Shown in pieces: positions 39,785 through 43,873 of a DNA stretch of 50,095 nt. The notes under the pieces are model-generated. The model worked only from the letters and a program-made list of their open reading frames with translations, searched no databases and had not been told where the DNA came from. The DNA is from an uncultured Bacilli bacterium (GTDB lineage: Bacteria; Bacillota_I; Bacilli_A; RF39; UBA660): NCBI GenBank assembly GCA_947623825.1, contig CANQHQ010000006.1, forward strand, positions 1 through 50,095, written 5' to 3'. Numbering within the stretch: the first letter of the stretch is position 1; each line of letters opens with the position of its first letter. A program made the position numbers and the translations under genes.

Positions 39785-39815
39785 TAAAAAAAAGAAGCAT
39801 TTTTTTATGCTTCTT
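39785..39815 (-). terminator. Terminator of the pilus ATPase gene
   Basis: On the minus strand the stem AAGAAGCAT with ATGCTTCTT (6-nt loop) is followed by a run of seven or more T. It overlaps the stop of the ATPase gene. On the plus strand no T run follows, so it is mainly a minus-strand terminator. Confidence 0.8.
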
Positions 39816-41088
39816 GTGGAATCGCTTCTTGCGAAACCTCAGTGGTTTCTTCTTCATTATCTTCTTCTTTTTCTTCTAGAAGGTCTACTTGATTATCAAG
39901 TTCATTTTCAATTTCGACTAATTTGTAAATTTCTTCGAAAGTTGTATATCCTTTAACTACTTTATCTAAACCATCTTGGAGAAGGGTAACGGTATCGTTT
40001 TCTTCGTATACCTTTCTTCTTAGTTCTTCTTTATCTGTATCTGGTCGACTGATGATATCACGAATATGTTCATCAATCTCTAGTACTTCTTGAATGGCAA
40101 TTCGTCCTAAGTATCCATTGATACATTTATCACATTTTCCTGGTTGCCAAATTTCAGGAACGTTAATGTGAAGTGCTTCTTGGAAGATACTTTTCTCATA
40201 TGGTGTCGTCGGTCTTAAAGTTCTACAATGCGGACAAATTCGACGTGCTAACTTTTGAGAGATAATTCCTTCAAGGGCAGTCGCTAATAAGTAACGTTCT
40301 ACATCCATGTCTAACAATCTTTCGATGGTAGATAGGGAATTGTTGGTGTGGATGGTAGAAAATACAACGTGTCCAGTAATGGATGCACGAACGGCAATTT
40401 GTGCGGTTTCAGAGTCACGAATTTCTCCAATTAGAATGACGTTCGGGTCTTCACGTAAGATGGAACGAAGAGCGGTCGCAAAGGTCATACCAATGTCACT
40501 GTTTACTTGTACTTGATTGATTCCTTCGATATTCATTTCTATTGGGTCTTCTACTGTAATGATGTTGGTTTCTTGTTTATTTAAGGCCTGCAACATCGAG
40601 TAGGTTGTCGTTGATTTACCAGAACCAGTTGCACCCGTTACGAGAATAATTCCATTTGGGATTTCAATCATTCGTTTAATCTTTTGATAATTCTTAGGAG
40701 AAAACTCTAAACTATGAAGTCCTTCCAAACTCTTACTATAATCAAGGATACGAATTACTACTTTTTCACCTTGATTGGTTGGTAGGGCAGCCACACGCAT
40801 ATCCAAGTCTAAGTTATCAATTCTACCTTTGATGGCACCATCTTGAGGAAGACGATTTTCTGTGATGTTCATTCCGGCGATCAATTTGATTCTGGTAATA
40901 ATGTTTCGCTCATGATCTTTTGGAATAATTGTGTGATCCTGTAAGTTTCCGTCAATCCTCATTCGAATCTTTAATCCATTTTCCATTGGGTCAAAGTGAA
41001 TATCAGAGGCTCTGGACTTGACTCCTACTAAGATAATTTTGTTTACCAAGTCTACGACTGGCGTGTTCTCTACATCATACTTTACCAT
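39805..41088 (-). CDS. Type IV filament assembly ATPase (PilB/GspE family)
   Basis: This 427-aa secretion ATPase should power assembly of a type IV pilus-like filament. Walker A is GATGSGKSTT (K158), followed by the Asp-box VEDPIE, Walker B-type REDPNVILIGEIRD and His-box FSTIHTNN. The four zinc-binding cysteines (C285, C288, C319, C322) typical of PilB/GspE are present. The N-terminal MshEN/N1 domain of larger PilB proteins is absent: the protein begins directly with the N2 domain. The C-terminal ~30 residues are very acidic. ATG 41088 follows AAGGGTGA. It diverges from the two prepilin-like genes. No PilC-type platform protein or prepilin peptidase is present in the window. Confidence 0.93.
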   Translation of the reverse strand: MVKYDVENTPVVDLVNKIILVGVKSRASDIHFDPMENGLKIRMRIDGNLQDHTIIPKDHERNIITRIKLIAGMNITENRLPQDGAIKGRIDNLDLDMRVAALPTNQGEKVVIRILDYSKSLEGLHSLEFSPKNYQKIKRMIEIPNGIILVTGATGSGKSTTTYSMLQALNKQETNIITVEDPIEMNIEGINQVQVNSDIGMTFATALRSILREDPNVILIGEIRDSETAQIAVRASITGHVVFSTIHTNNSLSTIERLLDMDVERYLLATALEGIISQKLARRICPHCRTLRPTTPYEKSIFQEALHINVPEIWQPGKCDKCINGYLGRIAIQEVLEIDEHIRDIISRPDTDKEELRRKVYEENDTVTLLQDGLDKVVKGYTTFEEIYKLVEIENELDNQVDLLEEKEEDNEEETTEVSQEAIPQEA

Positions 41089-41145
41089 TTCTTTCACCCT
41101 TACTTATTCTTCTTGTAATTTACCTATGGTATTTTACTACAATTT

Positions 41146-41174
41146 ATTATATAATATTTTTTGAAGATAGGCAA
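41146..41174 (-). promoter_or_regulatory. Promoter of the pilus ATPase gene, overlapping a divergent -10
   Basis: On the minus strand TTGCCT (41169-41174), 17 bp, then TATAAT (41146-41151). The sequence ATTATATAAT contains a -10 box on each strand (plus-strand TATAAT at 41150-41155), so the ATPase and prepilin genes may fire from overlapping divergent promoters. I see no good -35 for the plus direction. Confidence 0.55.
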
Positions 41175-41192
41175 TAAAGGAAAGTGAAAAAA

Positions 41193-42287
41193 ATGAGAAG
41201 AATTAAAAATCGGGGGTTTATGTTGATTGAAACGATGATTGTTACTGTCTTTATTATGACGATATTTGTCTTTATTTATCGGAATTCTGTACCGATGATT
41301 GGGCAATATCAGAAATTGGACAGATTTGACGATTTAGACAGTGTTTATGCCGCTAATATGATGAAAAAAATGGTTACGAATTATCTTTCATTCGATGTGA
41401 TTGACACACTTTTGGCTAATTCTACGTATGCGGATATTTCTAACTGTCAAGATACGTCAATTTACAGTGATGGATCCTACTGTTCCAAATTAAAGAAAAG
41501 TCTCAATATCGAAGTAGACGATATCGTTTATATTACGCGTTATAATGTTTCAGAAATCGTTTCTTCCGTAGGAAAAAGTTTCCGTGATGAAGTAAAACAA
41601 GACGTTCGCTTCGATTCTGGTAGTCTTTCGAACTTTCGAGATTATTTAAAAACGGTAGCTGATAATGAAAGTTTTTACAGTCCTACTAATATAGATAATA
41701 AAGCGATGGGAGTCTATCGATTATTTATTACGAGGACCGTAAGACAAGTCGATGGAACGACGAGAACGCATTATGCTAATATCGGAATTTATAAAACCAA
41801 TTATGTAGCGTCTTCGGTAGGTGCGACGGCTTCCCTACGAGCTAATAATTCGCTTTTGGTTTTAGATATTGGAGAGAATTTTCCGTTTACCTCTAATCTA
41901 CAGATTCAGTATTCTTCTGCAGGAGGTACTACTTCTTGTAATCCAGTGAACAATGTAAATCTAGGTTCCAATAACCAACAAGTGAACTGTATCTTAACCG
42001 AGAAGAATGGGAATACTTTGACGGCGAACTTTCAAGTAAAACATGGATATGCGCCGATTATGCAATCGTATGAATATCAGTGTAGTGAACCTTGTGGGTG
42101 TGACCCCGATCCAGAAACCGGAGAAGTTTCGGAGGATTGTGTTCCAGAAGAATGTCCGACCACTTGTGTCGGTACTCAGATGGTGTGCAACAAGGGTGGC
42201 GTTTATGTAGAAAAAATTGGTAGTGAAAACATAAATAAATGTTTATACTGCGTGAGTACGGGAGCAGATGGAACATGTGTATATTAA
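41193..42287 (+). CDS. Prepilin-like protein with cysteine-rich C-terminus
   Basis: A 364-aa protein with a class III (type IV pilin) signal: basic residues, then NRG, cleavage before FMLIETM, with Glu at mature position 5, then a 20-residue hydrophobic helix. The rest is a large extracytoplasmic domain. The last ~60 residues hold about ten Cys (QCSEPCGC, EDCVPEEC, TTCVG), suggesting disulfides or metal binding. It is much larger than a typical major pilin, so a minor pilin is more likely. ATG 41193 fits the local GTGA-type ribosome site; GTG 41184 is an alternative. It is followed 11 bases later by a second prepilin-like gene. Confidence 0.82.
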   Translation: MRRIKNRGFMLIETMIVTVFIMTIFVFIYRNSVPMIGQYQKLDRFDDLDSVYAANMMKKMVTNYLSFDVIDTLLANSTYADISNCQDTSIYSDGSYCSKLKKSLNIEVDDIVYITRYNVSEIVSSVGKSFRDEVKQDVRFDSGSLSNFRDYLKTVADNESFYSPTNIDNKAMGVYRLFITRTVRQVDGTTRTHYANIGIYKTNYVASSVGATASLRANNSLLVLDIGENFPFTSNLQIQYSSAGGTTSCNPVNNVNLGSNNQQVNCILTEKNGNTLTANFQVKHGYAPIMQSYEYQCSEPCGCDPDPETGEVSEDCVPEECPTTCVGTQMVCNKGGVYVEKIGSENINKCLYCVSTGADGTCVY

Positions 42288-42298
42288 GGCGGTGTGAA

Positions 42299-43873
42299 AT
42301 GAAGCGATTAAATAATCACGGGGTAAGTTTGGTTGAAATTATCGTTACTTTTTCCATAGTCATGGTCATTGTAGGCGGACTAATGGGAATTATTATGAAT
42401 TATCGTTTACAAGCGCAGTCTTCTTTTTCAAAATTGGAACTTCAAACTTATAAAAATACTTTAACCAAAGAAATCCAAGATGATATTTTGAATTTGGGGT
42501 TGTCTAATATCAACGAGGAGGGAAGTTGTTCCAGTGTCGAAAATAGAAATCGATTTGCTTCCTGTGCGAATTTGGTTTTTAAGGATGGGACAGAAAAAAT
42601 TTTGGCTATTTCTAAAATAGGTCAGGATGATCGAGATTCTTTGGAACATAAATATATTTTTTATGATGATGAACGGCATGTGATTCAGGATTCTCTTCCT
42701 AAAAAGATTCCTTCTGGTAGACATGCCATCGATTTTCAATCCATCTTTGTATATGATGGAAATTTTGTTTCTTCCGATAGTACTTTCTTGTCGGATGGAA
42801 CCGAAGTGAAGATTTTCTCTATCGATATTCCGATTGAACATATTGATTACGAAGAGGATTTTGGATTACATATTGTAGCCTCGAATGCCGATTTCTTGTC
42901 GACGAATGCCATGATTACAGAATTTCAGTATATTGGAGAAAACTATCAAGAGTATTCTGCCCCGGCAGACGGAACGTACCGTATCGAGTTATGGGGTGCT
43001 TCGGGTGGAAATATTGGAACGTATTTAGGTGGAAAAGGTGCCTATACGAGCGGTTATATTACTTTGAAAAAAGGACAAACTCTTTATGTTTATGTCGGTG
43101 GACAAGGAACCAATACCGATGTTGGAGGATTCAATGGAGGAGAATCGTTACGAACGGGTCAACATATCTATGGTTCTTCTGGTGGAGGTGCCACAGATGT
43201 TCGCTTGATTGGTGGTAGTTGGGACGACTTCAATGGATTAAAGAGTCGAATCATGGTTGCGGCCGGTGGTGGAGGTGCCAATTACCGAAATACCACTTCG
43301 GAAAAGGAAGGAAAACTTTATGGCTCGGGTAACGGTGGTGCCGGTGGAGGCATTATTGGTTATACGGGTGAGGCTTCTTCTTATGCGGATGTGACAGGGG
43401 GTTTTGAGTCTTATCCGAGTCACTGTTATGGTACAGGTGGAACTCAGGTTTCAGGTGGCAGTCGCCGTTGCTTTAACCCTAGTGGAGCGCAGTTGAATTC
43501 TGGTGTTACGGGTGGTTTTGGAAAGTCTTTGACCGTTACTTCCATATCTCAATCTGGTGGTGGTGGAGGATGGTATACCGGTGGACATAGCGATAATGGA
43601 GCGGCTGGAGGAGGTTCTTCTTATATCTCCGGTCATCCAGGATGTCAAGCAGTTGACCAGTTATCTACTGAGGGTAGCGTCCGTCATAAACCTGTTTCTG
43701 AACATGATTCCTTCGCGTTTAATGATACGACAATGATTGATGGAGAAGGTTATGTATGGACGTCTGCAACGCAACCTACTACCAAACAATCGATGCCATC
43801 GAATGGAGTAACTACGGTAAAAGAAGGAAACGTAGGAAATGGATATGCCCGGATTACCTATTTAGGTCTATAA
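42299..43873 (+). CDS. Prepilin-like protein with ALK/LTK-type glycine-rich domain
   Basis: This 524-aa protein begins with a class III signal: NNHG, cleavage before VSLVEII, with Glu at mature position 5, then a hydrophobic helix to about residue 38. Residues ~40-220 form an extracytoplasmic domain. Residues ~225-520 are glycine rich. Motifs include YRIELWGASGGN, YTSGYITLKKGQTLYVYVGG, GGGATDVRL, MVAAGGGGAN, SGGGGGWYTGG, AAGGGSSYI and GNGYARITY. This layout matches the glycine-rich domain of ALK/LTK receptor kinases and related bacterial proteins (Gly_rich). AAGGCGGTG precedes ATG 42299. It is co-transcribed with the Cys-rich prepilin and ends at a terminator. By analogy with other large minor pilins it may be a filament-tip adhesin, which is inference. 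Confidence 0.85.
   Translation: MKRLNNHGVSLVEIIVTFSIVMVIVGGLMGIIMNYRLQAQSSFSKLELQTYKNTLTKEIQDDILNLGLSNINEEGSCSSVENRNRFASCANLVFKDGTEKILAISKIGQDDRDSLEHKYIFYDDERHVIQDSLPKKIPSGRHAIDFQSIFVYDGNFVSSDSTFLSDGTEVKIFSIDIPIEHIDYEEDFGLHIVASNADFLSTNAMITEFQYIGENYQEYSAPADGTYRIELWGASGGNIGTYLGGKGAYTSGYITLKKGQTLYVYVGGQGTNTDVGGFNGGESLRTGQHIYGSSGGGATDVRLIGGSWDDFNGLKSRIMVAAGGGGANYRNTTSEKEGKLYGSGNGGAGGGIIGYTGEASSYADVTGGFESYPSHCYGTGGTQVSGGSRRCFNPSGAQLNSGVTGGFGKSLTVTSISQSGGGGGWYTGGHSDNGAAGGGSSYISGHPGCQAVDQLSTEGSVRHKPVSEHDSFAFNDTTMIDGEGYVWTSATQPTTKQSMPSNGVTTVKEGNVGNGYARITYLGL

Follow-up and report, generated by a model that had tools for sequence, protein, structure and literature searches.

The type IV pili (T4P) of Streptococcus sanguinis carry the modular tip pilins PilB, with a vWA module, and PilC, with a ConA-like lectin module; in models of PilA-PilB-PilC these modular pilins sit at the filament tip, and they attach to ligands of the host (PMC8179133, PMC9934059). 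In Com pili, DNA is bound by two pilins at the filament tip (PMC12153270). In the tail fibre of cyanophage Pam3, the protein gp24 combines a TNF-like domain with a Gly-rich domain resembling that of ALK, and has been assigned to receptor recognition (PMC9608196).

The locus described here encodes two prepilins, hereafter pil1 and pil2. Like PilB and PilC of S. sanguinis, pil2 joins a class III pilin module to a bulky C-terminal module (ligand-binding in S. sanguinis) in a monoderm host and is paired with another minor pilin, and in one relative the pil1 counterpart has a Laminin_G/ConA-like module. Unlike the S. sanguinis pilins, pil2 has as its head an ALK/LTK-type glycine-rich domain (GRD), its gene adjoins an ATPase gene instead of belonging to a full pil operon, and different genera have apparently swapped heads while the two-pilin carrier stayed conserved.

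The window, the whole 50,095-nucleotide stretch of DNA that was analysed, is contig C6 of a 1.48 Mb genome (93% complete) from a monoderm lineage, in keeping with the Gram-positive host assumed when the window was read from its sequence alone. Its near relatives are metagenome-assembled gut Bacilli, including Candidatus Scybalousia intestinigallinarum (now Alloscybalousia). The three key genes occupy positions 39805-43873, as the sequence-only reading had correctly placed them, with a minus-strand ATPase gene separated by ~100 bases from two plus-strand prepilin genes (Table 1). This gene order and the leader motifs agree with its description of an ATPase divergent from two class III prepilins, and the divergent spacing is short in most relatives too.

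Table 1. Features of the filament locus, in positions of the window.
Feature	Position	Strand	Evidence
PilB/GspE-type assembly ATPase without N1	39805..41097	-	T2SSE E 1.6e-119; TIGR02533 positions 104-484
Divergent intergenic region, ~100 bases, between ATPase and prepilin genes	41089..41192	.	Sequence
Prepilin 1 (pil1)	41193..42287	+	Class III motif; orthologues
Prepilin 2 (pil2), leader and pilin module, residues 1-203	42299..42907	+	Motif with Glu5; ribosome-binding site; N_methyl at cut-off
Prepilin 2, ALK/LTK-type GRD, residues 204-524	42908..43873	+	PF12810; model; fold matches
Fast-evolving GRD stretch, residues 366-425, candidate ligand-contact loops	43394..43573	+	dN/dS contrast with pilin module

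A class III motif with Glu5 is present in both locus prepilins and in their orthologues. The open reading frame of pil1 (41184-42287) probably starts at ATG 41193, with the leader MRRIKNRG followed by FMLIE, and that of pil2 (42239-43873) probably starts at ATG 42299, behind AAGGCGG, with the leader MKRLNNHG followed by VSLVE; both predicted starts agree with the orthologues. The pil1 protein consists of a pilin module of ~205 amino acids, whose N-terminus weakly matches ComGD (3.6e-4), and a tail of ~160 amino acids containing 12 cysteines. This Cys-rich tail occurs only in the subclade of the window and is partly common to another prepilin of the same genome. The N_methyl match of pil2, which had been named as a check on the pilin assignment, is marginal: it reaches the cut-off of 21.2 bits in the genome scan (21.2) and falls below it in the protein scan (18.2).

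The sequence-only reading had recognized on the second prepilin a pilin N-terminus joined to an ALK/LTK-like glycine-rich head, and profile searches, structural modelling and fold comparison all support this architecture. In pil2, a pilin module (residues 1-203, pI 4.64) is joined to a 320-residue ALK/LTK glycine-rich domain that matches PF12810 (ALK_LTK_GRD) with an E-value of 6.4e-44 (151.2 bits, cut-off 24.5; residues 244-542 of the open reading frame), and this is the only PF12810 copy in the genome. The AlphaFold model of full-length pil2 (39 sequences; pLDDT 87, pTM 0.64) contains a long helix (residues 11-66), then a pilin-like sheet and then the head, and the GRD modelled alone (76 sequences) scored higher (pLDDT 92.5, pTM 0.93). 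Chance glycine-rich low complexity is ruled out by the profile match (E 6e-44) and the pTM of 0.93.

When the GRD was compared with PDB structures using Foldseek (significance: E below 1e-3), all 21 of 21 significant matches were ALK or LTK ectodomains (E 5.5e-8 to 6.8e-6). The TM-scores to ALK/LTK structures were 0.28-0.43, and below 0.5 in both the full-length and the GRD-only search; therefore, we claim the ALK/LTK fold from the Foldseek E-values and sequence only. A profile of the GRD recovered the C. elegans ALK homologue SCD-2 among PDB sequences (7LIR, E 1.1e-8), and a direct phmmer search of the pil2 protein against PDB sequences returned no ALK chain. We consider homology of the GRD to ALK/LTK secure, as judged from sequence and local structure. 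The identity of every significant match favours the ALK-type fold expected for the head; global superposition is weak, and a single rigid superposition was not obtained.

The pil2 head therefore shares its Pfam family, and its sole significant PDB fold matches, with the extracellular glycine-rich (TG) domain of ALK/LTK (PDB 7NX1, 7LRZ, 7LIR); unlike these receptors, it is bacterial and carried on a pilin without a kinase, and no EGF-like domain was detected in it. The next match in the GRD-only search was Pam3 gp24 (E 0.098, not significant). As in gp24-type phage fibres, an ALK-like glycine-rich domain would end a long appendage and may hold a variable contact region, but gp24 forms a trimeric fibre whose shaft is helical. 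Numerous viral predicted structures match the GRD fold, and several of these are auto-named receptor protein-tyrosine kinase; for BFVD phage entries such as A0A8S5URB1, this name is likely an annotation carry-over.

The genome encodes the core parts of a type IV filament, namely an extension ATPase, a PilC/GspF platform and a prepilin peptidase. The ATPase, probably starting at ATG 41088 and ending in a short, acidic C-terminal tail, matches T2SSE (Pfam; Table 1). Because its alignments begin at position 104 of the GspE model (TIGR02533; 104-484 of 486) and position 174 of the PilB model (174-560 of 564), the N1 region is missing: the protein has no counterpart of about the first 100 GspE residues, or of the first 170 or so of PilB, in line with the sequence-only reading of an ATPase without N1. 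Some relatives (L205, L245, L238, L210, L199) have ATPase C-terminal tails of up to ~950 residues that are charged and apparently disordered, and the length of this tail differs between genera.

Profile searches found a single PilC-type protein (492 amino acids, with T2SSF twice) and, adjacent to it on contig C3, a single prepilin peptidase, PilD (259 amino acids, Peptidase_A24). With the ATPase and the class III prepilins, these proteins bear out the earlier assignment to a type IV filament. A complete pil operon at the window locus is ruled out by their location on another contig. Of 96 related loci, 22 have the PilC and PilD genes directly beyond the ATPase, and we therefore regard the parts found here as one system split over two loci; by this comparison of gene order, the ATPase locus and the contig C3 pair make up one dispersed type IV filament system. 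Neither PilM (profile search) nor a PilT-type retraction ATPase was found in this 93% complete genome. PilT-driven retraction was rejected as a candidate, as the only other T2SSE-type ATPases are two of Tad type; these, together with a second PilC-like pair, are parts of Tad-type loci. One such pilus locus, on contig C44 (L006:2171-7042), encodes a Flp-like 71-amino-acid pilin, TadA, TadB and TadC, and the second TadA/VirB11-like ATPase is on contig C13 (L010).

Ten N_methyl matches were obtained in the genome scan. A cluster of four prepilin genes (G000:C8:1-9400, L052; 168, 213, 204 and 760 amino acids) is a likely source of the major pilin, and its 168-amino-acid product (L052:8894-9400) resembles GspG/ComGC at the N-terminus. 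Two other prepilin genes, at a contig end (G000:C12:34444-34910) and in a contig interior (C23:11700-13592), encode identical N-terminal 155 amino acids, and contig C35 begins inside a closely similar gene (C35:1-1284). At C12, C23 and C35, the assembly seems to have been interrupted by the repetition of large modular prepilin genes.

Across the family, the ATPase was matched strongly (E of 1e-60 or better) in 111 of 116 genomes, from nearly all genera; four others gave weak matches only and one gave none. Conservation of the neighbourhood in relatives, raised earlier as a check, was observed: the ATPase usually adjoins the same two prepilins, which in most loci read lie between it and a YlbJ-like gene. 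Exceptions include L207 and L224, in which both minor pilins are absent and the ATPase and YlbJ-like genes are side by side, and a clade of 18 loci (L212, L217, L227, L236, L246, L251 and others) in which the ATPase is mostly apart from the pilin pair, beside unrelated genes. We surveyed heads in 85 loci that had not been picked for GRDs, in 60 of which both pilins were readable. Two small pilins without a head were encoded by 33 of these pairs, 16 had some other long module (lectin-like in one, LRR in one) and 11 had a GRD (8 on pil2, 3 on pil1). As head-free pairs make up more than half of the readable ones, the filament does not require a head.

The modules recognized by Pfam included Laminin_G_3 (Laminin_G/ConA-like lectin) on pil1 of L214, LRR_5 on pil1 of L240 and an Ig-like domain that separates pilin from GRD in L063; each of the two pilins has a GRD in L123 and L124. 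Heads are thus borne by either pilin, and they change repeatedly on the ATPase tree. On this tree, which also includes loci fetched for having a GRD, presence of a GRD on pil2 changed at least 7 times, and well supported branches require no fewer than 3 of these changes. In a tree of 153 GRDs, the window clade is placed with GRDs from surface proteins of the non-pilin and pseudo-pilin kinds (SH-aLRT 93) and apart from the pil2 GRDs of other genera; carriage by a pilin changes no fewer than 27 times. The simplest reading is repeated grafting of GRDs onto pilins, but the trees, built by a quick search with SH-aLRT as their sole support measure, are moderately supported. In these comparisons, the GRD is one head among several that a conserved pair of pilins carries.

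GRDs also occur on unrelated prepilins. One locus from a water buffalo omasum assembly (L105:963-12775, JAFYYX010000001.1) has seven consecutive prepilin genes with one or two GRDs each, and at its edge an additional truncated GRD reading frame lies beside this tandem array. In L081, L083, L087, L111, L148, L067 and L070, GRD proteins have pseudo-prepilin N-termini, with K-N-x-G-F or similar and a hydrophobic helix but without Glu5 (for example GFAISSMLYS).

Within the pil2 GRD, residues 366-425 evolve faster than the other parts compared. Among the close orthologues L059, L060, L061 and L062, dN/dS was 0.43-0.52 in this stretch, compared to 0.04-0.06 in the pilin module and 0.06-0.09 in the first part of the GRD, and its dN was ~ten-fold that of the pilin module at similar dS. 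The ratio was also about 0.5 between the window and either L072 or L074, and the L072-L074 pair was without this signal (0.12). For L059-L060, the non-synonymous contrast between the stretch and the pilin module was ~15-fold in odds (approximate Fisher p 2e-21, rounded counts); as the stretch was picked after viewing the alignment, this p-value is descriptive only, and the argument rests on recurrence in several pairs. Since dS is alike in all parts, import of this stretch from a diverged donor by recombination is not supported. Fast evolution here is as would be expected of a contact surface, and relaxed constraint could also explain it, given a dN/dS below 1.

From these data, we propose that pil2 is a modular minor pilin and probably, in our judgement with somewhat more to be said for it than against, a tip adhesin with an exchangeable head. 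As relatives replace the GRD with a lectin-like module, an LRR module or no head, it looks like an exchangeable adhesive tip. In a type IV filament of this gut Bacilli lineage, the locus would account for the extension motor and for two minor pilins. PilD would cleave the prepilin leaders, and PilC and the PilB-like ATPase would insert pil1 and pil2 first, probably as an initiating complex, which would place them at the tip, a position we assign by analogy with S. sanguinis. Extension may then proceed with another prepilin, such as the 168-amino-acid protein noted above. The GRD would project as a bulky head and contact its ligand through residues 366-425; candidates are mucus or a glycan of the host, other cells and surfaces. 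Swapping the head on the retained two-pilin carrier would retarget the filament. The architecture put forward in the sequence-only reading was right and its function is plausible: exchange with lectin-like and LRR modules and the fast stretch indirectly favour an adhesin, and the tip position and rigidity it also put forward, like any ligand, are conjectural.

The filament subtype is undecided, with a minimal, Com-like parts list. The equivalog cut-offs of GspE, PilB, ComGA, GspF, ComGB and ComGC-ComGF were not reached (ComGA 268.8 bits, cut-off 300; ComGB 148.9, 240; ComGC 35.9, 75), and PilM and PilT, which mark a type IVa pilus, were not found. Given these two negative searches and a comEA-comEC operon on contig C5 (ComEA named by eye from SLBB-like and helix-hairpin-helix sequence, ComEC by PF03772), the filament could itself be a Com-type pilus for DNA uptake or have arisen from one. 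In that case, pil1 and pil2 would be counterparts of the ComGD/ComGF tip pilins, capturing DNA for ComEA/ComEC, and the head would be an accessory that aids uptake or attachment to DNA-rich surfaces. Weak N-terminal matches to ComGD and ComGE and the presence of ComEC in 103 of 116 family genomes fit this proposal. The system resembles the monoderm Com pilus (T4dP, PMC12153270) in its minimal machinery of an ATPase, a PilC/GspF-like protein and a peptidase, with ComEA/ComEC and without PilT. It differs from that pilus in its two dispersed loci, the lack of comG operon order, scores below the ComG cut-offs and large modular minor pilins. Most GRD heads are acidic (12 of 14 have a pI of 4.5-6.6, and that of the window has 5.67), which together with the lectin-like and LRR alternatives argues against DNA as the ligand of the head, and exchange among such modules is unexpected of a DNA-binding part. 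Absences of the ATPase and of ComEC do not coincide, which also counts against a Com pilus; as a test of competence, their co-loss was uninformative. We consider a DNA-capturing role for these pilins, the main rival to adhesion as the function of the filament, unlikely yet worth keeping in view, and it is compatible with an adhesive head, so that both functions could coexist.

It is very unlikely that the GRD is a structural spacer or stabilizer without a specific ligand: the domain is glycine-rich, well ordered and carried by a great many unrelated surface proteins in this family, as such a role might have it, but its localized fast evolution, its repeated exchange with lectin-like and LRR heads, and the binding of ligands or receptors by ALK/LTK and phage fibres speak against this. 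Least probable of all is a type II-secretion-like monoderm pseudopilus that pushes substrates out with pil2 as the piston-tip pseudopilin, for although the ATPase and PilC score best against the GspE and GspF models (below cut-offs), Bacilli are not expected to have an outer membrane, the system has no linked secreted substrate, and it is not evident what a pilin with a ligand-binding domain would do there.

Returning to pil2 as a tip adhesin, we tentatively extend the proposal to the whole family of small-genome gut Bacilli, at a little less than even confidence: the conserved two-pilin tip unit beside the assembly ATPase may be a socket that takes an ALK-type GRD, a lectin-like, leucine-rich or unnamed domain, or no head. 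Such heads would have been recruited repeatedly from other surface proteins and would have diversified locally, in a stretch that makes contact, comparable to the swapping and diversification of receptor-binding proteins by phages, and the ALK-type fold would thus serve as a bacterial pilus adhesin. Modular pilins are already known; the ALK-type head and its apparent exchange on a conserved carrier seem to be new. Our literature search found no report of an ALK-type head on a pilin and none joining modular pilins, a glycine-rich domain and an adhesin, its one match for PF12810 concerned a fungus, and this architecture may already be listed in the census dataset of PMC8179133.

Together, these results would extend the repertoire of pilus heads to a ligand-binding fold of the kind found in animal receptors. 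The same carrier with different heads, over 80 loci, is a natural series that allows direct tests of head exchange and diversification, and the set of bacterial GRDs is useful for finding what the ALK-type fold binds outside animals. For uncultured gut Bacilli, pil2 provides a candidate for attachment.
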